A stretch of 64,000 nt of DNA, taken from Tessaracoccus rhinocerotis. Its GTDB lineage: Bacteria; Actinomycetota; Actinomycetes; Propionibacteriales; Propionibacteriaceae. The stretch lies in the NCBI RefSeq assembly GCF_007197885.1, contig NZ_VKKG01000007.1, forward strand, positions 62,001 to 126,000, written 5' to 3'. A model generated the notes under the pieces. It ran no database searches, was not told the DNA's origin, and saw only the letters and a program-made list of their open reading frames with translations. How positions within the stretch are numbered: position 1 is the first letter of the stretch; the number at the start of each line of letters is the position of its first letter. The position numbers were made by a program, and so were the translations under genes. Positions 2,403 through 20,332 of the stretch are shown in pieces.

Positions 2403-3247
2403 GGAAGCGCAAGCTCACCCCCAAGCAGGTCCTGGGTCACGTCACCCGCTACGCGGCACTGCTGCTGATCCTGGTCGCCATCCTCGGCCCCTACATCGTG
2501 ATGGCCGTCACGTCGCTCACACCCAAGGCGGAACTGGCGGCGGCGGGCGCCAGCCTGATCCCCAGCGCGCTGACGCTGGATGCGTACTTCGAACTGGTGA
2601 CCACCACGCCGTTCCTGAACTACCTGGGCAACAGCCTCCACGTGGCGCTGATGGCGGTGCCGCTCACCCTCGTGTGCGCCACCGGTGCGGCCATCGCCTT
2701 GTCGCGCTTCGAGTTCCTCGGCCGGCGCCAGATCATGACGGCGCTGATCCTGGCCCAGATGCTGCCGGCGGTCCTGCTCGTGCTGTCCCTGCAGGGTCAG
2801 CTGAACGTGATGGGGCTGCTGGACAACAAGTTCGGCCTCGCGCTCGTGCACGCCGCCTTCGCCACCCCGTTCGCCACTTGGCTGCTGAAGGGCTTCCTCG
2901 ACGGCATCCCGCGCGAGCTGGAGGAGTCCGGCTCGATCGACGGCGCGTCCACCTGGCAGATCATCCGCCTGCTGCTCATGCCGTTGCTGCTGCCCGGCAT
3001 GGTGGCGGCCGGCACCTACGCCTTCATCCTGACGTGGAACGAGTTCCTCTACGCCCTCACCTTCACCGCGTCGCCGGCCACGCGGACGCTGCCCGTCGGA
3101 CTCCAGCTCTTCATCGGCGAGTACCAGATCCGATGGGACCTGCTCACCGCCGGAGGCGTGCTCTCCGTGCTGCCGGTCGTGGCCGGATTCCTCCTCGTGC
3201 AGCGGCGACTCGTCGCCGGCCTGGCCGCCGGTGCGGTCAAGGGCTGA
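2399..3247 (+). CDS. ABC sugar permease, MalG/UgpE type
   Basis: A 282-residue permease, second subunit of the importer channel. It has about six transmembrane segments, the EAA loop reading EESGSIDGASTWQIIRLLLM near residues 180-200, and a TWNEFLYALTF segment characteristic of MalG-like proteins. It begins on the ATGA overlap with the preceding permease. After its stop at 3245-3247, 46 bases separate it from the dehydratase gene, the only sizeable gap within the operon. Confidence 0.9.
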   Translation: MRKRKLTPKQVLGHVTRYAALLLILVAILGPYIVMAVTSLTPKAELAAAGASLIPSALTLDAYFELVTTTPFLNYLGNSLHVALMAVPLTLVCATGAAIALSRFEFLGRRQIMTALILAQMLPAVLLVLSLQGQLNVMGLLDNKFGLALVHAAFATPFATWLLKGFLDGIPRELEESGSIDGASTWQIIRLLLMPLLLPGMVAAGTYAFILTWNEFLYALTFTASPATRTLPVGLQLFIGEYQIRWDLLTAGGVLSVLPVVAGFLLVQRRLVAGLAAGAVKG

Positions 3248-3293
3248 CCCCCAACACAGAACCCAGAAACCCTCTCCAGAAACAGGAACCCCA

Positions 3294-4382
3294 ATGAAGA
3301 TTCAAGACGTGCAGTTCCAGCTGTCCCGGATCCCCCTGCCGGGCGGCACCTGGGGTGACCAGATCCACACGGTCACCCACATCGAGATCATCACGGCCGA
3401 CATCACGGCAGACGACGGAACCAAGGGCGTCGGGTTCACCCACACCTCCGGCGTCGGTGGCCGCACCATCCTGGCGATGCTCGAGGAACTGCGTCCGCAG
3501 CTGATCGGCAGGTCCGCCCACCCGCGCTCGGTGTGGCACGACGCCTGGCACTACCTGCGCGACAGCGGCCCCGGTGGCGTCACCACCCTCGCGCTCGCGG
3601 CCATCGACATTGCGCTGTGGGACCTGCTCGGGAACCACCACAAGCTGCCGCTGGCCGACCTGCTCGGCCGCGTCCGCGACCGCGTCCACCTCTACGGCAG
3701 CGGCATCAACCTTCACCTGAGCGCCGACGAGGTGGCCGATCAGGTGGAGAACTGGAAGAACTCCGGGTACGGCGCCGCCAAGGTGAAGGTCGGCAAGCCG
3801 GACGTGGAGGAGGACGTCGAGCGCCTCACCAAGATCCGCGAGCGGGTCGGTCAGTTCCCCCTCGCCGTCGACGCCAACCAGGGCTGGACCCAGCCCCAGG
3901 CCATCATCGCGGCCAACCGCTTCGAGCACCTCAACCTGCTGTGGCTGGAGGAGCCCATCCGCACCGACGACGTCGAGGGCCACCGCCGTCTCCGCGAGCG
4001 CTCCCGCATCCCGCTGGGCCTCGGCGAGAACCTGTACACGCTGCAGCAGTTCAACCAGTACTTCATCACCGACACCTGCGACTTCGTGCAGACCGACGTC
4101 GGCCGCGTCGGTGGCATCACCCCGTACATGGCCGTCGCCGACACCGCCCGCGCCTTCAACCTGCCCATGACGCCGCACTTCATCATGGAACTCAGCGCCC
4201 ACGTGCTGTGCGCCGTCCCCAACGTCTCCTGGGCGGAGATGACCGAGGGTGGCACGCTCACCGAACTCGGCGTGATCGAGCCGCAGCCCATCGTCGACGG
4301 GTGGTTCGTCCCGCGCGACGTCCCGGGCCACGGCCTGAACTTCGACCGCGACTTCCTGACCAAGCACGAGGTGACCCGATGA
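3294..4382 (+). CDS. Enolase-superfamily (mandelate racemase/muconate lactonizing) sugar acid dehydratase
   Basis: A 362-residue member of the mandelate racemase group of the enolase superfamily. These proteins remove the alpha proton of a carboxylate sugar and usually dehydrate it to a 2-keto-3-deoxy acid. The second beta-strand carries the K-x-K base motif (AKVKVGK, near residue 165). Metal ligands are visible as Asp in DANQGW, Glu in WLEEPI and Glu in LGENLY. The Asp/His dyad of the group fits QTDVGRVGG and MTPHF. I chose the ATG at 3294, not an upstream in-frame codon, because it follows the permease stop and gives the family's normal N-terminus. It overlaps the SDR gene by ATGA. Substrate is unknown; a galactarate- or gluconate-type acid is plausible. 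Confidence 0.85.
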   Translation: MKIQDVQFQLSRIPLPGGTWGDQIHTVTHIEIITADITADDGTKGVGFTHTSGVGGRTILAMLEELRPQLIGRSAHPRSVWHDAWHYLRDSGPGGVTTLALAAIDIALWDLLGNHHKLPLADLLGRVRDRVHLYGSGINLHLSADEVADQVENWKNSGYGAAKVKVGKPDVEEDVERLTKIRERVGQFPLAVDANQGWTQPQAIIAANRFEHLNLLWLEEPIRTDDVEGHRRLRERSRIPLGLGENLYTLQQFNQYFITDTCDFVQTDVGRVGGITPYMAVADTARAFNLPMTPHFIMELSAHVLCAVPNVSWAEMTEGGTLTELGVIEPQPIVDGWFVPRDVPGHGLNFDRDFLTKHEVTR

Positions 4383-5194
4383 CCGACCCGCTCTTCGACG
4401 TCTCGGGACAGCGCGTCCTGATCACCGGAGGACTCGGCCAGATCGGCACCGAGTTCGTCCGTGCCTTCCAGTCCCGTGGGGCAACCGTCTACGTCGCCTC
4501 CCGCAGCGTGACGCAGGACAAGCTCGACGCACACTTCGGCGACTCGTCCGGTCTCGTCCCGGTGCGGTTCGACGTGACGGATGCCGACGGCGTCCGCGCG
4601 GCGCTGCGCGACATCGCCGACGACGGGGGGCCCGTCACCACCGTGGTCAACAACGCCGGCCTCGACACCCAGCCGAGCGCCCCGCCCGAGGTCTCAGGGC
4701 CGTTCGAGGACTTCCCCGTGGACGTCTTCCGCGAGGTGGTGGACGTGAACCTGACCGGGACGTTCATCGTCACGCAGGCGGCTGGCTCCGAGATGCGCCG
4801 CGCCGACGTCGCGGGATCGATCATCAACGTCGGCTCCATCTACGGCATGCTCTCACCGGTGCAGGACATCTACGCCTACCGCGCCGAGCAGGGGCAGCCG
4901 TTCACCAAGCCGGTGGCCTACTCCGCGGCCAAGTCCGGCCTGTACAACCTGACCCGCTACTGCGCCACGTACTGGGGGCGCCACGGCATCCGGGTGAACA
5001 CGCTGACACCGTCGGGCGTCGCACGTGACACCCAGGACGCCACCTTCCAGGCCAACTACACCGCTCGCATGCCGATCGGGCGGATGGCCGAGGCCGACGA
5101 GTTCAACGGCGCCGCCATCTTCCTGGCCTCCGACGCCTCCAGGTACATGACCGGAGCCAACCTCGTCGTGGACGGTGGCTGGACGGCATGGTGA
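4379..5194 (+). CDS. SDR-family oxidoreductase
   Basis: A 271-residue classical short-chain dehydrogenase/reductase. The nucleotide-binding glycine motif is TGGLGQIG near residue 17, NNAG follows near residue 90, and the catalytic pair is in YSAAKSG (Tyr and Lys four apart). The C-terminal VDGGWTAW ending is typical of sugar-alcohol and sugar-acid dehydrogenases. It likely oxidises or reduces a keto intermediate in the operon's pathway. It is joined to both neighbours by overlaps (ATGA at the start, seven bases at the end). Confidence 0.9.
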   Translation: MTDPLFDVSGQRVLITGGLGQIGTEFVRAFQSRGATVYVASRSVTQDKLDAHFGDSSGLVPVRFDVTDADGVRAALRDIADDGGPVTTVVNNAGLDTQPSAPPEVSGPFEDFPVDVFREVVDVNLTGTFIVTQAAGSEMRRADVAGSIINVGSIYGMLSPVQDIYAYRAEQGQPFTKPVAYSAAKSGLYNLTRYCATYWGRHGIRVNTLTPSGVARDTQDATFQANYTARMPIGRMAEADEFNGAAIFLASDASRYMTGANLVVDGGWTAW

Positions 5195-6102
5195 CCCCCG
5201 ATCTCGGGCTCCTGTTCAGCGCCATCGCCACGCCGGTGACCCCCGCCGGCGAACTCGACGAGGTGGCCGCGCGGGACCTGGCCGACAGGCACGTGGACGT
5301 CGGCGTCGAGGGACTCTACTGCGGTGGCTCCTCCGGCGAGGGTCTGCTGCTCGGCGTCGACGAGCGGCAACGGCTGCTCGCCGCGGTGGCGGAGGGCGCG
5401 GCGGGCAGGATCCCCGTGGTGGCCCACGTCGGAACGCTGTCCACGCGAGACTCGATCGCCCTTGCGCGGCACGCCGAGGATGTCGGCGCCGTCGCGGTGT
5501 CCATGATCCCCCCGATCTACTACAAGTTCTCGCCAGCGGAGGTCGCGGCCCACTACCGGGCCGTGATGGACGCCGTCGGGATCCCGATGATCATCTACAA
5601 CATCCCCCAGTTCACCGGGCAGGACCTCGACGCCGGCAACGAGCTGCTGGCCGACGAGCGCGTCGTGGGGGTCAAGTACACCGCGCACAGCATGTACCAG
5701 TTGGAGCGGATCGCGCGGCACCACCCGCGGCTGCAACTGGTCAACGGCTTCGACGAGGCCTTCCTCCCGAGTCTCGCCGCCGGTGCCACCGGGTCGATCG
5801 GCACCACGATCAGCATGCAGGTCGACGCCTTCAAGGCTGTCCGCGCCCACTTCCGGGCGGGCCGCCCCGACGAGGCGCGCCGGTTCCAGGAGCGGATCAA
5901 CGACGCCATCGAGACCCTCGTCGAAGTCGGCGTCTTCCCGGCTGCGAAGTGGGTGGAGGCGGAGCTCAGCGGGCTCCCGCTCGGCCCCTGCCGCGCTCCG
6001 TTCCAGCCCGTGCCGGAGGAGGCGACGGGGCGCTTGCGGGAGCTGGTCGCCACCGTGACCGCCACCAACGCCGAGGCGCGCGAGAGCCTTCGGGATCGCT
6101 GA
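5188..6102 (+). CDS. Dihydrodipicolinate synthase/N-acetylneuraminate lyase family aldolase
   Basis: A 304-residue class I aldolase of the DapA/NanA family, expected to cleave a 2-keto-3-deoxy acid to pyruvate and an aldehyde. The substrate-carboxylate loop is GGSSGEG near residue 48. The catalytic Tyr lies in IIYNIPQ near residue 137 and the Schiff-base Lys in VGVKYTA near residue 165. YNIP matches the N-acetylneuraminate lyase side of the family. As the last gene of an operon that begins with an importer and a dehydratase, a catabolic retro-aldol role fits better than lysine synthesis. N-acetylneuraminate itself is possible, but kinase and epimerase partners are absent. Confidence 0.85.
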   Translation: MVTPDLGLLFSAIATPVTPAGELDEVAARDLADRHVDVGVEGLYCGGSSGEGLLLGVDERQRLLAAVAEGAAGRIPVVAHVGTLSTRDSIALARHAEDVGAVAVSMIPPIYYKFSPAEVAAHYRAVMDAVGIPMIIYNIPQFTGQDLDAGNELLADERVVGVKYTAHSMYQLERIARHHPRLQLVNGFDEAFLPSLAAGATGSIGTTISMQVDAFKAVRAHFRAGRPDEARRFQERINDAIETLVEVGVFPAAKWVEAELSGLPLGPCRAPFQPVPEEATGRLRELVATVTATNAEARESLRDR

Positions 6103-6190
6103 GCGCTGCCGTCGTCGGTTGGGTCTCAGGCGGCCAGCGCGACCGGGCCGGTGAACGTCGCTCGGGGCAGGCCGCGGGCCGGTGGCCCAG

Positions 6191-6318
6191 CGCAACAATG
6201 TTGCGACAGGCCCCGAACTCGACGCCTTCCGCAACAGTGTTGCGCAGGTGTCGGTCCGGACCCGGGTAAGCATGTTGCGCTGGGTGCCGCTGTCGGCGCC
6301 TTCCGCAACAGTGTTGCG
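6191..6318. repeat. Cluster of four 15-bp palindromes CGCAACA-N-TGTTGCG
   Basis: Copies lie at 6191-6205 (centre A), 6230-6244 (centre G), 6265-6279 (left arm degraded, right arm intact) and 6304-6318 (centre G). Their starts are 39, 35 and 39 bases apart. The second and fourth copies sit inside a longer shared block beginning CGCCTTC, exactly 74 bases apart, so the array is two tandem units of a two-palindrome element. A further copy occurs at 34715-34731. The odd single-base centre is a poor hairpin loop and fits a dimer-binding site or a dispersed repeat better than a terminator. Confidence 0.75.
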
Positions 6319-6389
6319 CAGTGTCCAGCGTCCCGGGGCGCCGACGCCGGCCGTCCGCAGTGGTCCGCCCATCGTCGAGTATCGTCAGC

Positions 6390-6403
6390 CTGAAACCTTT
6401 CAG
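6390..6403. promoter_or_regulatory. Inverted repeat CTGAAA-CC-TTTCAG, candidate operator
   Basis: Two 6-bp arms flank a two-base centre about 190 bp upstream of the rhamnogalacturonan lyase. The layout resembles LacI- or GntR-type operators, but the centre is not the CG usual for LacI proteins. It could also be part of an upstream promoter. No direct evidence separates these. Confidence 0.35.
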
Positions 6404-6467
6404 CTTTTTCGTGGAACCCCTTCCATCCGGTCCGGTGCCGGTGGTAGCGTCGCCAGCAGTGCACTCA

Positions 6468-6481
6468 GGAAAGCGCTCTCC
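6468..6481. promoter_or_regulatory. GGAAAGCGCTCTCC, candidate LacI-type operator
   Basis: A near-palindrome centred on CG, 112 bp before the lyase start. It shares the core AAAGCGCT with the three strong operators of the LacI regulon at 38332, 43225 and 44401, but differs in the outer bases. It may be a site for a paralogous LacI repressor or a weaker site for the same protein. Confidence 0.4.
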
Positions 6482-6592
6482 AAAGTTGGAGGGCGCACCA
6501 CCCGGGTCGGCGGGACGCCCAAAGGAGCGATCGTCCCGGCGTCCGCCAGGCCCGGACTCCCCGTAACCCCAGAGAAGGAAGTGGGAAAACAG

Positions 6593-8935
6593 ATGAATGC
6601 CAAGAGAACCATCCGCGCGGCTATCGCCGTCGCGGGCGTGGCCGCCCTCGCGGTGACCGCCCTGCCGGCCAGCGCGGACCGGCACGGGCCGCACCCCGGC
6701 CCCGGCACCAGCACCCCCCAGCTCGAGAGCCTCGACCGCGGCCTCGTGGCCGTCAACACCGACGAGGGCGTCTTCCTCAGCTGGCGACTCCTGGCCGACG
6801 AGGCCACCGGCGCATCCGCCACCGGCCTCACCGGAACCAACTTCGACGTACTGCGCGACGGCAGCAGGATCGCCACGGTCACCGACAGCACCAACTACCT
6901 CGACGCCGCCGGCACCGCCGACTCGAGCTACTCCGTCGTTCCCGCCGGCCAGCGCGGCCACAAGGGCAAGGGCCGCACCGAGGCCGTCACCCCGCTCAAC
7001 CAGGACTACCTCTCCATCCCGCTGCAGCGCCCGGCCGACGGCGTCACCCCCGACGGGGAGGCCTACACCTACTCGGCCAACGACGCCTCGGTGGCCGACG
7101 TCGACGGCGACGGAGCCTACGAGCTGGTCCTCAAGTGGGACCCCTCCAACTCCAAGGACGTCTCCCAGATCGGCTACACCGGCAACGTCTACATCGACAC
7201 CTACGAGCTGGACGGCACCCTCCTCAACCGGATCGACCTCGGAGTCAACATCCGCGCGGGCGCGCACTACACGCAGTTCCTCGCCTACGACTTCGACGGC
7301 GACGGCAAGTCCGAGCTGATGATGAAGACGGCGCCCGGCACGAAGTCCACCACCTACCGCAACGGCAAGGCCGGCAAGGACCGCTACATCACCATGCTGA
7401 AGGAGGACCGCAAGGCCGGCTACAGCCACTCCGACGACTACCGCCTCAGCCCCGAGGGCTTCCGCGAGCACCTGGCCGAGATGTTCCGCGGCTGGGACAC
7501 CCGCGAGGAGGTCACCTCCGGGCAGTGGCCCGCCACCGTCGAGGAGGCCCTCGGCGCGACCGACCTCTCCTACGAGTACCCGCTCAGCGAGGCCGACTCC
7601 CTCGAGCTCGCTGACTACTTCATCACCGTCTACGGCCCGTCCCGCAGCGGCCGCAACACCGACAACCTGCTCAACTTCCGTGGCTTCATCGTCGACGGTC
7701 CCGAGTACCTCACGGTGTTCGACGGCGCCACCGGCCGCGAGCTCGAGACCGTCCACTACGACCCGCCCCGCGGCGACGACGGTCTCCTGTGGGGCGACTA
7801 CGCCATGAGCCGCATCGAGCCGGGCAACCGCGTGGACCGGTTCCTCGCCGGCGTCGGCTACCTGGACGGCGAGCACCCGTCGGCCATCTTCGCCCGCGGC
7901 TACTACACCCGCACCACTATCGCGGCCTACGACTGGGACGGCAGGCACCTCACCCAGCGCTGGTTCGTCGACTCGGGCCATGCGCCCATGAGCAACCCGT
8001 TCAACGACGGGCCGCACGGCGTCGACGGCACCGACCCCGTCTTCGGCGGCATCACCACCCAGGGCTTCCACTCCCTGAGCGTCGCCGACGTCGACGCCGA
8101 CGGCCGCCACGAGCTGGTCTACGGTTCCGCGACCATCGACGACGACGGCTCCCTCCTGTACAGCTCCTACGACGAGATGCCCGCCCAGAGCGCCGACCCG
8201 GGTGCCATCGCGCGCCTCGGCCACGGCGACGCGATGCACGTCACCGACATCGACCCGGCGCGTCCCGGACTGGAGATCTTCACCGTCCACGAGGGTGCCG
8301 CCTGGGCCCCGTACGGCTACGCCCTGCGCGACGCCGCCACCGGCGAGGTCCTCTACGGCGAGTACACGGGCCGTGACACCGGCCGCGGCATGATCGGCGA
8401 CGTCGACCCCAGCGTCCCCGGACTCGAGACCTGGGCCACGAAGCTGCGTGCCGCCGACGGCGAGACCCTCGCGGGACCGCTGCCGGGGACCAACCAGTCC
8501 ATCCGGTTCGCGGCCGACCTCACCACCCAGATCGTGGGCGGCAGCGGCAACCAGGACGTGACCCTCTGGGACCGCACCGACGGGGTCGTCCTGACCGCCG
8601 AGGGCACCCGCTCCAACAACGGCACCAAGGGCAATGCCAGCCTGGTCGCCGACATCCTCGGCGACTGGCGCGAGGAGCTCGTCGTGCGATCCGCCGACTC
8701 CAGCGAGCTGCGCGTCTACATCAGCACCGAGGTGACGAGCCACAAGCTCTACACCCTGATGCACGACCCGCAGTACCGGGCCGAGGTGGCGCGCCAGCAG
8801 ACCACCTACAACCAGCCCAGCTACACCGGCTTCTACCTGGCCTCGGACATGGACTTCGACGACGTGCCGCTCGTCGAGGTGTCCGACCACCCGGGCAAGG
8901 GCGAGCCGGGACGGCCGGGCAAGCCCCGCAGGTGA
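6593..8935 (+). CDS. Secreted rhamnogalacturonan lyase, PL11 (YesW/YesX type)
   Basis: A 780-residue exported polysaccharide lyase, predicted to cut the rhamnose-galacturonate backbone of rhamnogalacturonan I by beta-elimination. The start at 6593 follows a GAAGGAAG site and gives a clear signal peptide (Lys/Arg start, Ala/Val core, cleavage after ASA near residue 26). The mature N-terminus has the short beta-domain seen in the family (LESLDRGLVAVNTDEG, FLSWRLL). The main domain is a propeller with repeated calcium-binding Asp motifs, for example ADVDGDGAYELV, DFDGDGKSELM and ADVDADGRHEL. The basic, Gly/Pro-rich C-terminus has no sorting signal. The gene is alone, with candidate operators upstream. 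Together with the GH78 rhamnosidase at 51041 it indicates pectin use. Confidence 0.9.
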   Translation: MNAKRTIRAAIAVAGVAALAVTALPASADRHGPHPGPGTSTPQLESLDRGLVAVNTDEGVFLSWRLLADEATGASATGLTGTNFDVLRDGSRIATVTDSTNYLDAAGTADSSYSVVPAGQRGHKGKGRTEAVTPLNQDYLSIPLQRPADGVTPDGEAYTYSANDASVADVDGDGAYELVLKWDPSNSKDVSQIGYTGNVYIDTYELDGTLLNRIDLGVNIRAGAHYTQFLAYDFDGDGKSELMMKTAPGTKSTTYRNGKAGKDRYITMLKEDRKAGYSHSDDYRLSPEGFREHLAEMFRGWDTREEVTSGQWPATVEEALGATDLSYEYPLSEADSLELADYFITVYGPSRSGRNTDNLLNFRGFIVDGPEYLTVFDGATGRELETVHYDPPRGDDGLLWGDYAMSRIEPGNRVDRFLAGVGYLDGEHPSAIFARGYYTRTTIAAYDWDGRHLTQRWFVDSGHAPMSNPFNDGPHGVDGTDPVFGGITTQGFHSLSVADVDADGRHELVYGSATIDDDGSLLYSSYDEMPAQSADPGAIARLGHGDAMHVTDIDPARPGLEIFTVHEGAAWAPYGYALRDAATGEVLYGEYTGRDTGRGMIGDVDPSVPGLETWATKLRAADGETLAGPLPGTNQSIRFAADLTTQIVGGSGNQDVTLWDRTDGVVLTAEGTRSNNGTKGNASLVADILGDWREELVVRSADSSELRVYISTEVTSHKLYTLMHDPQYRAEVARQQTTYNQPSYTGFYLASDMDFDDVPLVEVSDHPGKGEPGRPGKPRR

Positions 8936-11073: not shown

Positions 11074-11314
11074 CCCCGCGGGCTGGGGTGGTACCGGGGC
11101 CGGCGTGACCGCAGCTCGCGACACTCAGCCGATCGCGCCCTGCAGGGCAGGGACGCGGGTGTGTCGCGAGCGCCTGTCACCGCGGCTCCGGCGGCCGCCG
11201 CATGAGACCGCGATGGGTGGCGGATTAGGAACCTCTCAGACTTCGCCGTCCGCATGGGCACAGGTGCGTCTTCGGCACTAGCTTGGTTGCAGGACTTGGG
11301 AACAGGGAGTGTGG

Positions 11315-12481
11315 ATGAGGATCGTCGTAGTGGGTACGGGGTACGTGGGGTTGTCGAACGCCGTGATCCTGGCGCAGCACAACCAGGTGACGGCTGTTGA
11401 CATCGATGCGGGGAAGGTGGCGCAGATCAACCAACGGGTCTCGCCGATCATCGACACGGAGCTGCAGGACTACCTGAGCAACAAGCCGCTGGACCTGACA
11501 GCGGTGACCGACGGCGCTGGGGCGTATGCGGGGGCCGACTTCGTGGTGGTGGCCACCCCGACCGATTACGACCCGCAGCACAATTTCTTCAACACCTCGT
11601 CTGTGGAGTCTGTGGTGGCCGACGTGTTGGCGGTGAACCCGGGTGCGGTGATCGTGATCAAGTCGACGGTGCCGGTGGGCTTCACCGCGGAGCTGCGGGA
11701 GCGGCACTCGGGGGCGTCGATCATCTTCTCGCCGGAGTTCCTGCGGGAGGGCAGGGCGCTGTATGACAACCTGCACCCGTCGCGGATCGTGGTGGGGGAG
11801 CGGTCGGAGGCCGGGAAGCGGTTCGCGGACCTGCTGGTGGAGGGTGCGCTGTCCAAGGACGTGCCGGTGCTGCTGACCGATGCGACGGAGGCGGAGGCCA
11901 TCAAGCTGTTCGCCAACACGTACCTGGCGTTGCGGGTGGCGTACTTCAACGAGTTGGACACCTACGCGGCCTCGCGTGGTCTGGACACGGCGCAGATCAT
12001 CGAGGGTGTGGGTCTGGATCCCCGGATCGGTTCGCACTACAACAACCCGTCGTTCGGCTACGGCGGCTACTGCCTGCCGAAGGACACCAAGCAGCTGTTG
12101 GCGAACTACTCCGACGTGCCGCAGAACCTGATCGCTGCGGTGGTGGATGCGAACCACACCCGCAAGGACTTCATCGCCTTCGACATCATCAAGCGTCGCC
12201 CGAAGGTGGTTGGGGTGTACCGGCTGGTGATGAAGTCGGGTTCGGACAACTTCCGGGCGTCTGCGATCCAGGGGATCATGAAGCGGATCAAGGCCAAGGG
12301 CATCCCGGTGATCGTCTACGAGCCGGAGCTGGCCGAGGACCGGTTCTACAACTCCGAGGTGGTGCGTGACCTGGAGGAGTTCAAGCAGCGCGCCGACGTG
12401 ATCATCGCCAACCGTCGCACAGAGGTGCTCGACGACGTGGCGGACAAGATCTACACCCGCGACATCTACGGGCGCGACTGA
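11315..12481 (+). CDS. ugd: UDP-glucose 6-dehydrogenase
   Basis: A 388-residue enzyme oxidising UDP-glucose to UDP-glucuronate, a precursor for acidic capsule or exopolysaccharide. The NAD-binding site is GTGYVGL at residue 8, the nucleotide-sugar segment is FSPEFLREG, and the catalytic Cys is in [11 protein letters not shown] near residue 253. Length and nearly every motif follow the enterobacterial Ugd form as I remember it, closer than the usual ~440-residue actinobacterial form. I chose the ATG at 11315 over a GTG two codons earlier because GGGAG lies five bases upstream. Third codon positions use more G and T (GTG, GCG, TTG) than flanking genes, which may mark acquisition by transfer. 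Confidence 0.93.
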
Positions 12482-12484
12482 TCC

Positions 12485-12907
12485 TCAGGACAGCTCGGCC
12501 GCGGGTGCGGGCCGGAACCGCTCCAACAGCAGCACCGACGCGACGCCGACCAGCGCGCCGAGCGAGTTGGCCACCCAGTCCAGCAGCGACGACGTGCGCG
12601 GCAGGAACGCCCCCTGCACCATCTCGATGCAGAACGAGGCGACGACCCCCAGCGGCAGCCACAGCCACCGCGGGACGTGCGGCCACATCGTCGCCAGCAG
12701 CATCACGGGCACGGCGAACAGCACCACGTTCAGCATGAAGTCGAAGCTGTAGAGGTCCAGGCCCCGCACGCCCACCGACTCGGAGGTGCGGGCCAGCCAC
12801 GCAAGCACCTGCCCGATCTGCTTACCGATGGGCAGGAAGACCACGCCGAGCCCGAGAATCGCCCAGCCGGCGAGCAGGGCGATCAGGACGGGACGGCGGA
12901 TGTGCAC
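12485..12907 (-). CDS. VanZ-family membrane protein
   Basis: A 140-residue protein with about four hydrophobic helices and the pattern of the VanZ family: a first helix, then NVVLFAVPVMLL, and a polar ASFCIEMVQ motif just before a TSSLLDWVANSLGALVG segment. VanZ confers low-level teicoplanin resistance in enterococci, but most homologues have no known role and sit near envelope genes, as here. The start is a GTG. It converges on ugd with a three-base gap, leaving no room for a terminator. Confidence 0.75.
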   Translation of the reverse strand: MHIRRPVLIALLAGWAILGLGVVFLPIGKQIGQVLAWLARTSESVGVRGLDLYSFDFMLNVVLFAVPVMLLATMWPHVPRWLWLPLGVVASFCIEMVQGAFLPRTSSLLDWVANSLGALVGVASVLLLERFRPAPAAELS

Positions 12908-12947: not shown

Positions 12948-13964
12948 CTACCGCTGGATCTCGTAGTACGTGGCCAGGTCGTCGGAGCGCAGCGCCTCCC
13001 TGAGCAGCTCCAGCTTGTTCTCGTCCATCAGGACGATCGACTGGCCGTCGCTCGAGGTGCCGGTCCCGGTGACCGGGAACTGGAACGATCGGATGTTGGT
13101 GGCGTCGGTGCCCATTCCCATCGCGAGGTCGATGATGACGTCGTTGGTGAGGGCCTCGTCGACGGTGAAGTTGGGGCCGAGGGTGGTGACGACGTCGCGG
13201 AACTTGCCCGGGTCCGCGAGGGTGCCCGCCGAGGCGATCTTCCTGACCACGGCCATCACGACGTCGCGCTGCCGCTCGCCGCGGCTGAAGTCGCCGGCGG
13301 GCAGGTTCTTGCGCTCCCGGACGTACTGCAGGGCGCTCTCGCCGCTCAGCTCGATCTCGCCCTCGGGGAAGTCGAAGCCGCCCGAGTTGGAGGGATACCG
13401 GTTGTTGACGGTGACGCCGCCGAGGGCATCGATGACCCGCACGAAGCCCTCGAAGTCAATGATCACCGTGTGGTCCATGGGAACGTCGAGCAGGGCCTCC
13501 ATCGTCTCGATGGTCAGCCCGGCGCCGCCGAAGGAGTAGGCGGCGTTGATCTTCGCCTGGCCGCGGCCGGGGACCTCCACCCAGGTGTCCCTGGGGATGC
13601 TCATCAGGTACGCCCCGGAGCGGTCGCCGGGAACGTGCAGCAGCTGCAGCACGTCGGAGCGCCCGCGCTCGTCGCCCCGGGTGTCCGAGCCCATCAGCAC
13701 GAAGTTGAGCGGGGCCGCGGTCTCGCCCTCCTTGGTGGGAACGGGCGCCGGGCGGGTGGCGCCCTCGGTCGGCGTCATCGATGGCTCGCGCTTGATGGAG
13801 TCGAGCGCGTCGAGCGCAGACTTGCCGTAGTAGCCGGCCAGCGCGATCGCGCCGATGAGGGCCACCGCCAGCAGGCCGACCACGGTGAACAGCACCCAGC
13901 GGCGCTTCCTCGGGCGGCCGCGCCCGCCGTCGCCGTTGTCCAGCAAGTCGTCCACGCTGCTCAT
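12948..13964 (-). CDS. LytR-CpsA-Psr family wall-polymer ligase
   Basis: A 338-residue membrane-anchored protein of the LCP family, which transfers undecaprenyl-linked glycopolymers (teichoic acid, capsule, arabinogalactan) to peptidoglycan on the outer face of the membrane. A basic cytoplasmic N-terminus with RPRKRRW precedes a single helix near residues 24-46, then a Pro/Thr linker. The LCP domain shows NFVLMGSDTR, SDVLQLLHV, SIPRDTWVEVPG, KINAAYSFGG and later YVRERKNLPAGDFSRGERQ, carrying the Arg and Asp residues that bind the pyrophosphate lipid. Its start overlaps the stop of the upstream fusion gene, so they are co-transcribed. Confidence 0.92.
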   Translation of the reverse strand: MSSVDDLLDNGDGGRGRPRKRRWVLFTVVGLLAVALIGAIALAGYYGKSALDALDSIKREPSMTPTEGATRPAPVPTKEGETAAPLNFVLMGSDTRGDERGRSDVLQLLHVPGDRSGAYLMSIPRDTWVEVPGRGQAKINAAYSFGGAGLTIETMEALLDVPMDHTVIIDFEGFVRVIDALGGVTVNNRYPSNSGGFDFPEGEIELSGESALQYVRERKNLPAGDFSRGERQRDVVMAVVRKIASAGTLADPGKFRDVVTTLGPNFTVDEALTNDVIIDLAMGMGTDATNIRSFQFPVTGTGTSSDGQSIVLMDENKLELLREALRSDDLATYYEIQR

Positions 13965-15913
13965 CAGGCGCTCCGCTCCTTGTCCGCGAGGGCCCTCAGC
14001 CCTTCGGTGATGGACCCAAGGTACCCATCAATGCTGTTCGCCGCCCCCAGCGCGGCCGCGTCCCCGCGGCGGTACGGGTCCGCCACCTCGTCGGCCGGGG
14101 TCGCGGACCGGTGCTGCCACAGGTGCTCCACGAGCCCCGCCAGCGTCACGTCCTCAGGTAGTTGGGCGAGCTCCCGGGCGACGTGGCCGATGATGAAGGC
14201 CTTACGGCCGAGGGTGGGCCACTCGTCGAGGATGTAGCGACGATGGTCCGAGCCCATCGTGAGGATCAGGTCTGCCTCGGACACCAGGTCCCTCGTGAGC
14301 TGGCGGGCGCGGTGCGCCGTCGGGTCGCCGGCCCGGACGTTGGCGGCCATGGGAGGGTCGATGGCCTGGTCCACCAGGGCGCGGGTTCCGGCGGAGCTGA
14401 ACTCCACCCCCGGCACCCCGGCGGAGCGGGCGACGACGTCGGCGTAGGCGGAGCGGCAGATGTTTGCCGTGCACACGAACAGCACCTTGTAGGGTGCGGG
14501 GCCCCGCGCGGGTTCGGCGGGCGGCGGGGCGTCGGTGACGGCGACGGGGCGCGGGTGCTCGGCGGGGCGGGGGAGGTGGTCGCCGATCTCCAGCCATGAG
14601 TTGCCCGGCCGGAAGCCGGAGGCCTTGACGTGGTCGAGGGCGAGCACGGCACCCTCTGGCGTCCCGGCGGGGGCGGGCACCTCCCGCACCAGGTTCGGGT
14701 CGGCGCCGCTGAGCTGGAACACGCGGCGGGCGACGTCGTTCCAGCCCACCACCCTGCCGTCCCCGGTCAGGTTGTAGGTACCGGGCCGGGCGCCGGAGTC
14801 GAGCAGGTGGGTGATGCCGGCGGCGAGCTGGTCGGCGAAGGTGAGCCTGCCGAACCGGTCGCTCACGACGTCGAGCCGTTCGCGACGCCTGGCGGCGGTG
14901 GCCGCCTGTTCGACGAAGCTGCCCTCGCGGCCCATCACCCAGCCGGTGCGCACCACCAGGTGGCGGGGGACGCCGGCGGCCACCAGTTCGCCGGCTGCGA
15001 GCGCCTGGCCGTGCGGGTGCGCGAGGCTGAGGGGCTCGTCCTCGGCGTGGGCGGGGGCGGATCGGTCGAACACGCAGTCGGCCGAGACGTGGACGTAACG
15101 CAGGTGGTGGCGACGTGCGACGTCGGCGAGTCGGAGGGCGCGCTCGGCGGCGCCGGTCCAGCTCTCCTCGGACGAGATCGAGTCGGGGAGGCCGGTCGCA
15201 GTCTCGCCGTGGGCGTTGACCAGCACGTCGTAGGCGGACAGGTCCACCGGGGTGACGGCCCGCGGGGCCAGGTCTGCAGTGGTGACGCCGTCGGCGCCCG
15301 GCAACTCGGCCAGCAGCGCACGCCCGAGCCGGGTCTCGGTGCCCGCCACGAGGGTGCGGCGCGGCCCCATCGGGACGGTGTTGGCCAGCAGCGGGTTGAG
15401 GGTGTCGCGGTGGGCGACGATCGCCCGTTCGCGCCCGATCGGCCAGTCGATGCCGAGGGTCGGGTCGAACAGGTCGACGGTGACAGCGCGGCTGCGGCCC
15501 TTCGGGGTCCAGTGCTGCTCCATCAGGTAGCTGAAGGTGGTGTCGTCCTCCAGCACCTGGTGCGCGTTCGCGACGCCGCGCGGCACGAACACGGCGAGAC
15601 CCGGGTCCAGGTCATGGGTGAGGGTGCGGCCGAATCCCGTCCCCGGGCGCAGGTCCACCCAGGCGCCCATTGCCCGGCCCTGCACCACCCCGACGATCCT
15701 GTCCCACGGCTCTGCGAGGAAGCCGCGGGTGATGCCGCGGGAGACGACGTGGGTCACGTTGTGCTGCACCGGGTCGAAGTCCGGCAGGCCGAGCGCCGTC
15801 ATCTTCTCGCGGTGCCAGCCCTCCTTGAACCAGCCGTCGTCGTTGTGCTGGAGCGCGAGTTCGAGCACCAGCAGGCCGGGGATCTCCGTGGTCCGGACCC
15901 TGAGCTCGTTCAT
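13964..15913 (-). CDS. RmlC-RmlD-low-molecular-weight tyrosine phosphatase fusion; RmlC/RmlD sites degenerate
   Basis: A 649-residue three-part protein. Residues 1-185 resemble dTDP-4-dehydrorhamnose 3,5-epimerase (RmlC), 186-450 dTDP-4-dehydrorhamnose reductase (RmlD), and 475-649 low-molecular-weight protein tyrosine phosphatase. RmlCD fusions are known in actinobacteria. Compared with those as I remember them, the RmlC active-site His in RGxH is Leu66 (TRGFLAEP). In RmlD the GxxGxxG turn reads GTETRLG, the STD motif reads SAD, and the YxxxK pair is replaced by His301 and Leu305 (HGQALAAGE). The phosphatase has an intact C-X5-R loop (CTANICR, Cys481-Arg487) and an Asp-Pro-Tyr acid loop (Asp612). 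The start at 15913 follows GAGGAGGAG. Most likely the first two domains now bind rather than convert sugar nucleotides. No rmlA or rmlB is nearby. Confidence 0.85.
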   Translation of the reverse strand: MNELRVRTTEIPGLLVLELALQHNDDGWFKEGWHREKMTALGLPDFDPVQHNVTHVVSRGITRGFLAEPWDRIVGVVQGRAMGAWVDLRPGTGFGRTLTHDLDPGLAVFVPRGVANAHQVLEDDTTFSYLMEQHWTPKGRSRAVTVDLFDPTLGIDWPIGRERAIVAHRDTLNPLLANTVPMGPRRTLVAGTETRLGRALLAELPGADGVTTADLAPRAVTPVDLSAYDVLVNAHGETATGLPDSISSEESWTGAAERALRLADVARRHHLRYVHVSADCVFDRSAPAHAEDEPLSLAHPHGQALAAGELVAAGVPRHLVVRTGWVMGREGSFVEQAATAARRRERLDVVSDRFGRLTFADQLAAGITHLLDSGARPGTYNLTGDGRVVGWNDVARRVFQLSGADPNLVREVPAPAGTPEGAVLALDHVKASGFRPGNSWLEIGDHLPRPAEHPRPVAVTDAPPPAEPARGPAPYKVLFVCTANICRSAYADVVARSAGVPGVEFSSAGTRALVDQAIDPPMAANVRAGDPTAHRARQLTRDLVSEADLILTMGSDHRRYILDEWPTLGRKAFIIGHVARELAQLPEDVTLAGLVEHLWQHRSATPADEVADPYRRGDAAALGAANSIDGYLGSITEGLRALADKERSA

Positions 15914-15941: not shown

Positions 15942-16724
15942 TCAGGACAACTCCGCCACCACTGCGGCGGCGATCTCGGCCTGGGCCTCGGCCGAGAGCG
16001 AGTCACCGTCGCCGATGCCTGGCTGGCCGGCATCCACCATCGTGCCACCGACGGCCTCCACGGCCGCGCCGATCGTCTGGGCGTGCATCGTCAGCCAGTA
16101 CTCGGCGGTGTCCTCGGTGGTGACGGGTGCGATCGCCACCAGTTGCGCGTCGGGGAGCGCCTCCCGCAGCGCCGCGAAGTAGGCCTCCGCCGGCTCAGCC
16201 AGACCGTAGTCGCCGTCGGCGGTACCGCCGAAGGTGACCACCACGTCGGGTCCCGCCTCCACGATCGCGGGGACGGAGCCCGGGAACGGGGCGCAGGGAT
16301 CGAAATCGCAGGATCGTGGCGTGGCCACGTAGCCGCGGCCGGGGGAGGCGAGGTTGACCACCTCGCCCCAGCCGAGTTCCGCAGCGGCGGTGCCCACCCA
16401 GGTGGAGGCAGGATCCCCGACGGAGTGGGAGTCACCGATCACGACGACCACGCCGGCCCCACCCGCAGGCGTGCTGGTCTCCTGGACGGGCTCGGTGGTG
16501 CCGGGCTCAGTGGTGGCCGGCGCGCTGGGATCCGCCGGTTCGCCCGACGTCTGGGGTGCCGTCTGCGTGGTGTCCGAGGGGGTGGTGGCGGCGGGTTCGG
16601 CGGTGACGGAGCGGCTGGCCAGCACCGCCGCGGCGCTCAGGGCGACGGCGACGACGGCCAGGGCCGCGAGTGCGATCACGCTCAGTCTGCTACTGTCCCT
16701 GGATGCCCTCATAGCCTCGCTCAC
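15942..16724 (-). CDS. SGNH/GDSL-like membrane-anchored protein, catalytic His not found
   Basis: A 260-residue protein with an N-terminal hydrophobic anchor (residues 14-36), a Thr/Pro/Glu-rich linker to about residue 90, then an SGNH-fold domain beginning VVVVIGDSHSVG (block I, nucleophile Ser). The usual GxND block reads FGGTADG. The C-terminal D-x-x-H position appears as DGDSLSAEA, with no His, so the triad looks incomplete. It may be an inactive sugar-binding relative or use another residue. It lies 28 bp upstream of the fusion gene on the same strand and is probably in the same transcript. In this context it could act on a surface polysaccharide. Confidence 0.65.
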   Translation of the reverse strand: MSEAMRASRDSSRLSVIALAALAVVAVALSAAAVLASRSVTAEPAATTPSDTTQTAPQTSGEPADPSAPATTEPGTTEPVQETSTPAGGAGVVVVIGDSHSVGDPASTWVGTAAAELGWGEVVNLASPGRGYVATPRSCDFDPCAPFPGSVPAIVEAGPDVVVTFGGTADGDYGLAEPAEAYFAALREALPDAQLVAIAPVTTEDTAEYWLTMHAQTIGAAVEAVGGTMVDAGQPGIGDGDSLSAEAQAEIAAAVVAELS

Positions 16725-16799: not shown

Positions 16800-16865
16800 C
16801 TCTCGCAGTCCAATACCTAGATTTCTGGGGGTTTTCCGGGGATCGTGTTCTGACAAGGAAATTTG

Positions 16866-18287
16866 ATGGAGCTGCAGCAGTACCTACGGATCTTCCGGCG
16901 TTACTGGCGAAGCGCGGTCGCCACTTTCCTCCTCGGGATCGTCCTGGCAGCCGGCTTCACCCTGCTGCAGAGCCCCACCTACACCTCCGCGGCCTCCATC
17001 TTCCTGACCGTCGAGAGCGGCGGCACCGCCGGTGAACTGTCCCAGGGAGCCACCTACACCGAGCGTCAGGTCGCCTCCTACGTGAACGTGGCCAGCACCG
17101 AGCTGGTCCTCGGCCCCGTCATCGAGGAACTGGGCCTGGACATGACGCAGCGCCAGCTCGCCAACAGCCTGTCCGTGACCTCCCCTGCCGCCACCTCCAT
17201 CATCGACGTCGCGGCACAGCACGGCGACCCGCAGCAGGCCGCGGCAATCGCCAACGCCGTGGCCCAGAGCCTGCTCTCGGCGGTCGACGTGCTCTCCCCG
17301 CCCGGACCGGACGGCACCCGCCTCGTCAGCGCGCAGGTGATCGACTCCGCTCTCGTCCCCACCTCGCCGACGGCGCCCCGCCCAGTCATGAACCTCGCCC
17401 TCGGCGGCCTGCTGGGCATCCTGCTGGGTCTTGGCCAGGCGGTGCTGCGTAGCGTCCTGGACACCCGCCTGCGCACCATGGAGGACGTCGAGTCGCTCAC
17501 TGAGGCCCCGGTGCTGGCCTCCATCGGGCGCATCGACACCTCCGCGGACCGTGCTTCGGAGCGAACCGGCCAGCAGTGGGCCAACGCGGAGGCCTACCGG
17601 CGCCTGCGCACCAACGTGGGCTTCGTCGGCCTCGGCGGCGAGCGCCGCTCCTCCATGGTGGTCACCTCGTCGCTGGCGGGGGAGGGCAAGACCGAGACGG
17701 TCACCAACCTCGCGCGCGTGCTGGCCCACGCCGGTGAGTCGGTGCTGCTGGTGGACGCGGACCTGCGACGCCCCCAGCTCGCCAACCGCATGCGTCTGGA
17801 CAGCGAACTCGGCCTCTCCGACGTGCTCACCGGACGCGGCACCCTGCAGGACCTCGTCATCGACGTCGCCCCCGGCTACCTGGCCGTGCTGCCTGCCGGC
17901 ACCGTGCCGCCCAACCCGTCGGAGCTGCTCGGCTCCGAGGCCATGGCACACCTGCTGGCCACCGTGGAGCGCCAGTACGATTACGTGCTCTTCGACGCCC
18001 CCCCGCTGTTGCCGGTGACCGACGCCGTGGTGCTCTCGGCACAGACAGGCGGCGCCATCGTCGTCGCCCGCTCCGGCAAGGTGCGCCGCCCCCAGCTGGA
18101 TGCGGCACTCGAGCTGCTCGAGGCCGGCGACGTCACCGTCCTGGGCATGGTGCTCAACGACGTGCCCGTAACGAAGGACAACGCCTACGGCGACTACTAC
18201 TCCAGCCACACCCCGGAGTCCGCCGCCGCCCAGCAGGACGGGGCGCGCGCGGGGCGGCGGGCCAAGACACCGGCGGCCGGGCGCTGA
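16866..18287 (+). CDS. Wzz/BY-kinase: polysaccharide chain-length regulator with tyrosine autokinase
   Basis: A 473-residue bacterial tyrosine kinase fused to its Wzz-type membrane activator, controlling length and export of exopolysaccharide. One transmembrane segment lies near residues 17-36 and the second near 175-197, bracketing an extracytoplasmic domain. The cytoplasmic kinase carries Walker A SLAGEGKT (269-276), Walker A' VLLVDADLRRP and Walker B YVLFDAPP. The C-terminal tail has a small tyrosine cluster (AYGDYYSS), suitable for autophosphorylation though shorter than in Wzc. The ATG at 16866 follows AAGGAAA. The phosphatase domain of the divergent fusion gene at 13964 is the likely opposing enzyme. 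It converges on the CapD gene with a 13-base gap. Confidence 0.92.
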   Translation: MELQQYLRIFRRYWRSAVATFLLGIVLAAGFTLLQSPTYTSAASIFLTVESGGTAGELSQGATYTERQVASYVNVASTELVLGPVIEELGLDMTQRQLANSLSVTSPAATSIIDVAAQHGDPQQAAAIANAVAQSLLSAVDVLSPPGPDGTRLVSAQVIDSALVPTSPTAPRPVMNLALGGLLGILLGLGQAVLRSVLDTRLRTMEDVESLTEAPVLASIGRIDTSADRASERTGQQWANAEAYRRLRTNVGFVGLGGERRSSMVVTSSLAGEGKTETVTNLARVLAHAGESVLLVDADLRRPQLANRMRLDSELGLSDVLTGRGTLQDLVIDVAPGYLAVLPAGTVPPNPSELLGSEAMAHLLATVERQYDYVLFDAPPLLPVTDAVVLSAQTGGAIVVARSGKVRRPQLDAALELLEAGDVTVLGMVLNDVPVTKDNAYGDYYSSHTPESAAAQQDGARAGRRAKTPAAGR

Positions 18288-18300
18288 GGGCCGGGGAGCG

Positions 18301-20205
18301 TCAGCGCAGGGTCTCCAGCGTGGTGCCCGGGTAGATGGTGGGTTCGGTGTCCAGCAGTTCCAGCACGACGTCGCGGCTGTCGGGGTGCTCGGGAACCAGG
18401 TCCGGGTCCAGCGCCGGCACGTAGACCTCGCTGATCAGCGGGTGGCTCGTGGTGGAGCCCTCCTCGAGGTTGCTGAACAGCACCTCGTGCATCTTCTCAC
18501 CCGGCCGCAGCCCGGTGAAGTGGATCTCGATGTCCTGGCCGGACTCCTCGACGAGCCGCTCGGCCACGTCCACGATCTTGACCGGCTCGCCCATGTCCAG
18601 GACGAGGACGTCCCCCGGAGTGCCGATGGCGCCGGCCTGCAGTACCAGCTCGCAGGCCTCCGGGATGGTCATGAAGTAGCGGGTCACGTCCGGGTGCGTG
18701 ACGGTGATGGGGCCGCCCTTGTCGATCTGTGCACGGAAGGCGACCAGCACTGAGCCGCGCGAGCCCAGGACGTTGCCGAACCGGACCGACAGGTAAGGCA
18801 GGTCGTAGTTGTTGGCGAACCAGGCCGTGAGTCGTTCCGCCAGGCGCTTGGTGCGCCCCAGCACGCTCGTGGCGGCCGCGGCCTTGTCCGTCGAGATGTT
18901 GACGAAGCGCTGCACGCCGACGGCGTGGGCGGCACGCAGGACGTTCAACGAGCCGAGCACGTTGGTCTTCCAGCCCTCGAGCGGAAAGCGCTCGAGCATG
19001 GGGAGGTGCTTGAGCGCGGCCGCGTGGAACACGACGTCGGGGCGGTGCCGCTCGAACACGGCCAGCAGGGCCTCGTAGTCCCGGATGTCGCCGAGGACCA
19101 TGTCGTCGGTGTCCAGCAGGCCGTTGCCGTACAGCTCCAGTTGCACGCCGTGCAGCGCGGACTCATCGCGGTCCAGCAGCAACAGCTTGGCGGGGCCCAG
19201 CTTGTGCACCTGGCTGGCGAGCTCTGCGCCGATGGAGCCGCCGGCGCCGGTGACCAGCACCACCTTGCCGGTGATGTAGTCGGAGATCTCGCTGAGGTCG
19301 GTCCGGATGGGGCGCCGGCCGAGCAGGTCGGCGACGTTGAACTGGCGCAGCGCACCCAGGGTCACCTGACCGCCGATCATCTCCCGCACCGGCGGCAGCA
19401 CCACAAGCTCCAGGCCGTGGTCGCGGCACCGGTCCGAGATGTTCTGGATGAGCTTCGCCGAAGCGTTCGTGATGGCGAGGATCACCGTCCGGGCGCCGCG
19501 TTCGCGGGCGACGGTGACCAACTCCGCGCCGGTGCCGCGCACCCGGTGCCCCTCGATGCGCAGGTTGCGCTTGTCCGGGTTGTCGTCGATGAATCCGACG
19601 ATCCGGTACGGCGGGTCCTCCGCCTTGGCGACAAGCTGGGCAACCTGGTAGCCGGCGTCCCCCGCGCCATAGACCAGCGCAGGGGTGGCGTCCTCGCCCA
19701 CGGGGCGGGGGCGAGAGGCCATCAGGCTCCGGAACAGCCAGCGGGCGGTGGCCATGAACATCAGCGCCATCGGGGGCAGCATGATGGCCACGCCGCGCGG
19801 GAAGTTCGTAGTGAGCGCGCTGAACACGAGACCGAGTGGGAACGCGATCACCACCACGACGAACCCGACCCACGAGGCCTCCGCGAAACTGCCGATCCGG
19901 TTGCGTCCCAGATACACCTGGGTGACCAGACCCAACGCCACCTGCAGCAGGAAGGCGCAGGCCGTGTAGGCGATCACCCAGGACCACTGCGGGCTGGAGA
20001 GGTCGAAGTCGTAGCGGACCAGGAGGAACGCAAGCATCGCGAAGACCCAGGACAGCCCGTCCCAGCAGATCAGCGTCGTCCTGCGCCAGAACGCGGGCAG
20101 CCTGTAGATGGCGGAACTCAGTGCTCCGTGTGAGATTCTCGACCTGCCGGGGGGCGCAGACTGTTTCTCGACCATGCGCGACACAATATCCCCGACGACT
20201 GACAT
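18301..20205 (-). CDS. CapD/FlaA1-type nucleoside-diphosphate sugar 4,6-dehydratase, membrane form
   Basis: A 634-residue membrane-bound polysaccharide biosynthesis protein. The N-terminal ~150 residues contain four hydrophobic helices. A CoA-binding-like Rossmann domain follows (LVYGAGDAGYQVAQ), then the SDR domain with TGAGGSIGAEL, ALKHLP and an NISTDKA segment, the FlaA1/CapD pattern. Such enzymes convert UDP-GlcNAc to 4-keto-6-deoxy sugars for capsule or glycan synthesis. The start is uncertain: ATG at 20205 and ATG at 20175 are both possible and neither has a strong ribosome site. Confidence 0.88.
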   Translation of the reverse strand: MSVVGDIVSRMVEKQSAPPGRSRISHGALSSAIYRLPAFWRRTTLICWDGLSWVFAMLAFLLVRYDFDLSSPQWSWVIAYTACAFLLQVALGLVTQVYLGRNRIGSFAEASWVGFVVVVIAFPLGLVFSALTTNFPRGVAIMLPPMALMFMATARWLFRSLMASRPRPVGEDATPALVYGAGDAGYQVAQLVAKAEDPPYRIVGFIDDNPDKRNLRIEGHRVRGTGAELVTVARERGARTVILAITNASAKLIQNISDRCRDHGLELVVLPPVREMIGGQVTLGALRQFNVADLLGRRPIRTDLSEISDYITGKVVLVTGAGGSIGAELASQVHKLGPAKLLLLDRDESALHGVQLELYGNGLLDTDDMVLGDIRDYEALLAVFERHRPDVVFHAAALKHLPMLERFPLEGWKTNVLGSLNVLRAAHAVGVQRFVNISTDKAAAATSVLGRTKRLAERLTAWFANNYDLPYLSVRFGNVLGSRGSVLVAFRAQIDKGGPITVTHPDVTRYFMTIPEACELVLQAGAIGTPGDVLVLDMGEPVKIVDVAERLVEESGQDIEIHFTGLRPGEKMHEVLFSNLEEGSTTSHPLISEVYVPALDPDLVPEHPDSRDVVLELLDTEPTIYPGTTLETLR

Positions 20206-20332
20206 CACGTACTGGAGTTCACACGATTTCCGCTCGACAAGGACTGACGGGAGTTCCGTTCTTTGGATGGACCCAGTAAAAACCATTGTCAGAAACGATT
20301 AGGCGGTGTGTTCGCCATCGGGAGAAACAATC

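Follow-up and report, generated by a model that had tools for sequence, protein, structure and literature searches.

A tyrosine phosphatase fused to a dead-looking RmlC-RmlD pair beside a BY-kinase gene in Tessaracoccus rhinocerotis

What would a tyrosine phosphatase be doing on the end of a sugar-nucleotide enzyme that appears to have lost its catalytic residues? The question is posed by a gene at 13964..15913 on the minus strand of a 64,000-nucleotide stretch of the Tessaracoccus rhinocerotis genome (contig NZ_VKKG01000007.1, positions 62,001 to 126,000; hereafter the window), which encodes an RmlC-like domain, an RmlD-like domain and a low-molecular-weight protein tyrosine phosphatase (LMW-PTP or PTP) in a single polypeptide and lies beside a BY-kinase gene. 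The conclusion that the product is an RmlCD pair, dead-looking by sequence, on an active-looking phosphatase is well supported and the combination occurs in dozens of related proteins. We judge it somewhat more probable than the contrary that the phosphatase serves the tail of the BY-kinase, with the dead RmlCD part kept as a folded non-catalytic module for dimerisation, positioning or regulation. No paper on a pseudo-RmlCD-phosphatase fusion was found among the matches listed in searches of the open-licence PubMed Central (PMC) literature. What tells a BY-kinase cycle about the state of polysaccharide synthesis is, to our knowledge, an open question.

The fusion gene and its predicted fold

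An earlier note on this DNA had proposed a three-domain fusion with degenerate RmlC and RmlD sites. The open reading frame (ORF) is real, beginning with an ATG that has a good ribosome-binding site (GAGGAGG, read from the sequence) 6-12 bases 5' of it, and its 649-residue product matches Pfam families RmlC (PF00908, residues 9-177, 92.5 bits), RmlD (PF04321, residues 187-440, 94.6 bits) and LMWPc (PF01451, residues 477-562, 55.9 bits) over their cut-offs. The triple domain order, which the note knew from nowhere else, was found by a protein search in 47 full-length proteins (P0001-P0047, window protein included; hereafter triples), and these were compared with 53 plain RmlCD proteins, two of them from the same genome, and for the phosphatase with 18 two-domain relatives consisting of RmlC and PTP parts without RmlD. 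The named features are as follows, all on the minus strand.

13964..15913, minus: pseudo-RmlC / pseudo-RmlD / LMW-PTP fusion gene, ATG start, 649 residues
15368..15913, minus: RmlC-like domain, residues 1-182
14579..15361, minus: RmlD-like domain, residues 185-445
14495..14578, minus: linker of low confidence, residues 446-473, predicted local distance difference test score below 50 at 452-454 and 456-469
13967..14494, minus: LMW-PTP domain, residues 474-649
15716..15718, minus: L66, RmlC base His position (His in 53/53 plain RmlCD, 15/47 triples)
15332..15334, minus: T194, lost middle Gly of GxxGxxG (Gly in 53/53 plain RmlCD, 0/47 triples)
15080..15082, minus: A278, RmlD catalytic Thr/Ser position (Ala 21, Thr 11, Ser 10 of 47 triples)
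15011..15013, minus: H301, RmlD catalytic Tyr position (Tyr in 53/53 plain RmlCD, 0/47 triples)
14999..15001, minus: L305, RmlD catalytic Lys position (Lys in 53/53 plain RmlCD, 0/47 triples)
14450..14473, minus: phosphatase P-loop CTANICRS, C481 to S488 (Cys, Asn, Arg and Ser in 47/47 triples and 18/18 two-domain forms)
14078..14080, minus: D612 of DPY, general acid position (47/47 triples, 18/18 two-domain forms)

The residues singled out in the note (L66, A278, H301, L305, C481-X5-R487 and D612) are all as it gave them and a Rossmann Gly is indeed lost. In the window protein the RmlC base His and Lys are both gone (L66, R72), the GxxGxxG site of the RmlD part reads GTETRLG (G194 to T) and none of its Thr/Tyr/Lys triad is left, while Y129 and D170 are kept and align to Y140 and D180 of Streptococcus suis RmlC, which we take to be the Tyr acid and the Asp of the dyad, as in RmlC relatives (PMC7949155). 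The phosphatase has C481, R487, S488 and D612, with a profile match over the cut-off and a predicted fold consistent with an LMW-PTP. The equivalog cut-offs were not reached by the window protein for RmlC (TIGR01221, 67.2 vs 155.75 bits), RmlD (TIGR01214, 78.2 vs 224.05 bits) or Wzb (NF007520, 48.2 vs 243 bits).

These positions correspond to residues of known role. RmlC employs His as base, Tyr as acid and Lys to stabilise the enolate (PMC7949155; PMC9095892), T104, Y128 and K132 carry out catalysis in RmlD (PMC4832382), and Wzb uses C13, R19 and D119, with G15, N16, I17 and C18 surrounding the phosphate (PMC2777267). In common with Wzb and Etp, the LMW-PTPs of capsule BY-kinase systems (PMC2777267; PMC3366997), the fusion has the C-X5-R-S loop, the Asp, the fold and a BY-kinase-adjacent gene; it differs in its CTANICRS loop, with Ala in the place of Wzb Gly15, in its N-terminal pseudo-RmlCD and in its low equivalog score.

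In a first structure model, from 23 sequences, the RmlC part came out badly folded. A second, built on 123 sequences of which 51 were plain RmlCD proteins on which the model leans, gave a good, high-confidence prediction containing both the RmlC and the RmlD fold, and the best VIA-align match was an RmlC with dTDP-glucose bound (1.2 A). For the phosphatase the best fold match among the matches listed was an arginine phosphatase; Ile485 is as in Wzb. The misreading of neighbouring genes as one was ruled out, as the ORF is single and uninterrupted in 14 DNA sequences (the window's among them, 12 of them distinct, in plus-strand frames only, seven minus-strand loci of the genus being left out) and in all 11 carriers in the genus, which were read on both strands.

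Residues lost and kept across the family

By comparison with the 53 plain RmlCD proteins six residues are lost in all 47 triples, namely Lys72 and Arg26 of the RmlC part and Gly194, Tyr280, Tyr301 and Lys305 of the RmlD part. Residue 26 is Arg in 53/53 plain RmlCD and 0/47 triples and residue 72 is Arg in 45 triples and Gln in two, both universal losses that the earlier note had missed. Its picture of degenerate sites holds as a family trait for the Gly and the Tyr/Lys pair and fails for two others, since the RmlC His, gone in 32 triples (Leu in 23, Tyr in six, Thr, Gln and Met in one each), is present in 15, and Thr or Ser persists at the RmlD Thr/Ser position in 21. The other 46 full-length homologues have likewise lost the middle Gly, the Tyr/Lys pair and the Tyr after SxD, which makes chance, or a sequencing error whose correction the note had allowed might restore the motifs, a very unlikely source of these losses. 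A second alignment checked at 20 positions left the triple counts unchanged and took in 25 two-domain forms, in which R26 is lost in 25/25 and K72 in 24/25 and the RmlC His is kept in 18/25.

Much else is retained. All 47 triples have Arg63, Gln50, Asp87 and Trp70 in the RmlC part and Gly191, Ala234 and Arg322 in the RmlD part, Asp170 is kept in 45 and Tyr129 in 40, and Cys481, Asn484, Ile485, Arg487, Ser488 and Asp612 of the phosphatase are invariant in the triples and the 18 two-domain forms. At least 95% conservation in both triples and plain RmlCD is seen at 43 RmlC and 21 RmlD columns, and new conserved residues specific to the fusion are found. The TDP contacts described for TDP-sugar epimerases are R25, F28, E30, Q48, R61 and H64 (PMC9095892), of which R25 (from StrM/CBU1838), F28 and E30 were mapped by us to residues 26, 29 and 31 through the RGxFxE pattern. 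On a quick RmlC-domain tree Arg26 is gained or lost once, Lys72 twice and His66 about seven times, so that the TDP-contact Arg and the Lys were apparently early losses and the base His a later and repeated one.

Compared with actinobacterial RmlCD proteins the fusion has the same two domains in the same order, the matches listed being 44-50% identical to it across roughly two thirds of its length, and differs in these losses and in its added C-terminal phosphatase. An RmlC/D fusion has also been reported in the alga Prymnesium parvum (PMC6556577).

Possible roles of the RmlCD module

The N-terminal two thirds would derive from a bifunctional RmlC-RmlD enzyme akin to the two intact RmlCD copies of the genome and should, by its residues, perform neither reaction any longer. 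RmlC typically forms a domain-swapped dimer and the RmlC half probably still does so, which would pair two phosphatases, and both halves may position or regulate the phosphatase through a surface or an altered pocket; we favour dimerisation or partner binding over dTDP-sugar sensing. The phosphatase most likely removes phosphate from the Tyr-rich C-terminal tail (AYGDYY) of the adjoining BY-kinase, its probable substrate judging by gene context, and we propose that the polysaccharide assembly cycle turns as a result of this dephosphorylation. That the oddity recurs in dozens of proteins, usually beside a BY-kinase, suggests that a dead enzyme has been reused to control or position a phosphatase. 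A BY-kinase accompanies nine of ten triple loci (L006-L015), and of the 11 carriers among 39 genomes of the genus eight have one within 1.8 kb and a ninth (G024) has it at a contig end beside the fusion. Carriers have a BY-kinase more often than the other genomes of the genus (10/11 vs 11/28, Fisher p=0.005), these p values being only a guide because genomes of one genus are not independent, and 23 of 34 BY-kinases over the cut-off lie at most 5 kb from a PTP match entered in the comparison. A partner-subunit role for an RmlD-like protein has a precedent in MAT2B of human methionine adenosyltransferase (PMC3793261).

Several observations weigh against this reading. The BY-kinase of one carrier (G011) is 88 kb from the fusion and another genome (G022) keeps the fusion without a BY-kinase over the cut-off and without the usual neighbours. 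The LCP gene adjoins the fusion here, as the earlier note had mentioned, and was detected after it in just five of the ten related loci. RmlD is absent from the two-domain sister forms and its half is therefore dispensable there, and a PTP tree places the two-domain P0129 outside and the stand-alone L034, L038 and L040 inside the fused group. MAT2B is itself an imperfect precedent, as it keeps its Gly motif and the triad of the short-chain dehydrogenases/reductases (SDR), is a subunit in its own right and has a synthase as its partner, and according to the title of one paper Mat2A is stabilised, not regulated, by MAT2B (PMC8638259).

Could the module instead be a sensor, as the earlier note suggested? 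Under this explanation, which we consider unlikely, a dTDP-sugar, another nucleoside diphosphate sugar (NDP-sugar) or NAD(P)H would bind to the dead RmlCD part, which would then switch the phosphatase, so that kinase cycling is tied to the supply of precursors. Most mappable pocket residues are kept (Q50, R63 and D87 in 47/47; F29, E31 and N52 in 45/47 each), the VIA-align match to an RmlC carrying dTDP-glucose fits, the genome has two rmlA-rmlB-rmlCD sets, and by analogy NAD(P) sensing is ascribed to the SDR regulators NmrA and HSCARG and suggested for MAT2B (PMC3793261). However the TDP-contact Arg is found in 0/47 triples and 0/25 two-domain forms and the NADPH Gly motif is broken in every triple, while MAT2B, unlike the fusion, retains both the Gly motif and YxxxK. 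Furthermore, in four carriers (G011, G022, G024 and G037) the sole RmlC domain is the fusion's own; all four are without RmlA and all except G022 without RmlB over the cut-off, although G024, only 85% complete and with 40 residues of RmlA at the end of a contig, may have the pathway to which these enzymes belong. In the genus neither RmlB (8/11 carriers vs 16/28 others, p=0.48) nor RmlA (7/11 vs 13/28, p=0.48) is clearly linked to the fusion, and co-occurrence lends no support to a direct tie to the dTDP-rhamnose pathway. With the TDP-contact Arg and the NADPH motif gone and four carriers lacking any other RmlC, a sugar-nucleotide sensor is possible and not favoured. What stands of the earlier interpretation is a dead-looking RmlCD pair on an intact phosphatase beside a BY-kinase and an LCP ligase; its dTDP-sugar sensing is not supported, given also the lost His and Lys and a fusion that tracks the BY-kinase and not clearly RmlB. 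A ligand other than a dTDP-rhamnose precursor is possible, and it is conceivable, if rather unlikely, that the dead enzyme is the phosphatase's built-in receptor, with BY-kinase dephosphorylation gated at the RmlC dimer by a bound partner or NDP-sugar, which need not be a dTDP-rhamnose precursor; if true, this would couple precursor supply to polysaccharide polymerisation.

An accidental fusion in which selection acts on the phosphatase and a functionless RmlCD part erodes would account for the two-domain forms, for the RmlC match under the Pfam cut-off in P0132, P0133 and P0137 (18.6, 21.4 and 11.1 vs 27 bits), for the bare PTP of L034, for the repeated changes at His66, for RmlD lengths of 246-303 in triples vs 264-272 in plain RmlCD and for a somewhat higher RmlD/RmlC distance ratio (1.43 vs 1.27 in plain RmlCD). 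We regard it as distinctly unlikely, since the ratio of nonsynonymous to synonymous substitution (dN/dS; rough values, from NG86 on high-GC codons) of both domains is mostly well under the 0.55-1.18 of the linker (residues 441-473), many columns are conserved in both families and others anew in the fusion, and the predicted fold is of high confidence. Very improbable in our view is residual or changed catalysis, with the RmlC part acting as a C3 (mono)epimerase or other-sugar enzyme in a subset of the family, Arg72 replacing the Lys. The subset with His66 and the widely kept Tyr129 and Asp170 would suit it, as would G022, in which the fusion has kept the His and is the genome's sole RmlC domain, and H67A in the RmlC relatives DdahB/MlghB left about 30% C3 activity on a heptose substrate (PMC7949155). 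The same change ended activity on a mannose substrate and in RmlC, and mutation of Lys74 abolished DdahB activity (PMC7949155, whose excerpt contains no Lys-to-Arg test); this Lys is gone in 47/47 triples and the window protein is without both His and Lys.

Relatives and genomic setting

Named sources of the triples are Tessaracoccus, Parenemella and assemblies labelled Propionibacterium, Propionibacteriaceae or Actinomycetota. Two-domain relatives number 26 among the 120 matches listed, those named being from Flaviflexus and Tessaracoccus; they have the same PTP type and two of their loci (L033, L039) also have BY-kinase and SGNH neighbours. P0132, P0133, P0137 and P0139 are phosphatases of 326-365 residues with an N-terminal RmlC-like part, P0139 resembling P0137. 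Such two-domain, eroded and bare PTP forms are ready-made deletion variants for separating sensing, dimerising and tethering roles of the dead module.

In an RmlC-domain tree 57 plain RmlCD rows are split from 65 PTP-fused rows (47 triple, 18 two-domain) by a 100/100 branch, in a bootstrap that had not settled, and RmlC trees differ in requiring one change or two to explain the presence of RmlD. In the PTP tree, which has long branches and was built on 21 of the 47 triples with 26 two-domain, eight other and 63 stand-alone rows, the fused PTPs cluster away from most stand-alone PTPs with moderate support (83/90); the order of two-domain and triple forms is not settled by it. An Arachnia locus (L034 7950-8567) has BY-kinase, LCP and Polysacc_synt_2 genes and a bare PTP, and as this PTP nests well within the triples the RmlCD part was probably lost there. 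Two Ornithinimicrobium genomes (L016, L027), which gave a first tblastn impression of triples, were ruled out as such, since their intact-motif rmlCD and their ptp are two distinct neighbouring genes that follow an RmlB-like ORF (our own reading; shortened to 222 residues in L016). The fusion could arise from such an arrangement; the Ornithinimicrobium PTPs are not close to the fused PTPs in the tree. Five Nocardioides loci (L019, L021, L024, L025, L026) have a stand-alone relative of the fusion PTP about 4-5 kb from an rmlCD-type gene, so that the two may have become linked before the fusion or in parallel with it.

The neighbours of the fusion gene in the window are listed below.

11309..12481, plus: UDP-glucose/GDP-mannose dehydrogenase (PF03721, PF00984, PF03720)
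12485..12907, minus: VanZ-like protein, last gene of the run (PF04892)
12948..13964, minus: LCP glycopolymer transferase (PF03816), its ATG overlapping the fusion's TGA by one base
15942..16724, minus: SGNH/GDSL-like protein with an N-terminal hydrophobic stretch (our reading), directly upstream of the fusion (PF13472 sub-threshold, 25.3 vs 32.9 bits)
16863..18287, plus: BY-kinase (Wzz and kinase), divergent (TIGR01007, 161.3 bits, cut-off 108.05)
18301..20286, minus: Polysacc_synt_2 nucleotide-sugar dehydratase-like protein (PF02719)

With the SGNH gene ending 28 bases upstream of the fusion, the one-base TGA/ATG overlap and a shared strand, the SGNH, fusion and LCP genes look like one operon; the VanZ-like ORF lies 40 bases past LCP. 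The SGNH/GDSL-like gene is the steadier neighbour, directly upstream in 10/10 triple loci compared with 5/10 for LCP. No other protein of the genome passes the family cut-off of the BY-kinase, and a second LMW-PTP (CTANICRSPAAE; L088, C47:22449-22952) lies on the same contig about 57 kb from this kinase. Outside the window this contig also has the two intact-motif rmlCD genes (L004 6719-8116 and L005 13354-14745), about 49 kb apart and each beside rmlA and rmlB over the cut-off. The G022 fusion (L104 8243-10159) lies between a RadA-like gene (our reading) and a MerR/HEAT gene.

Window positions 208-8935 hold a likely plant-polysaccharide uptake set.

208-3247: transporter-like genes (our reading of the first residues)
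3231-4382: MR/MLE enolase
5188-6102: DHDPS-family aldolase
6182-8935: rhamnogalacturonan lyase family 11 protein

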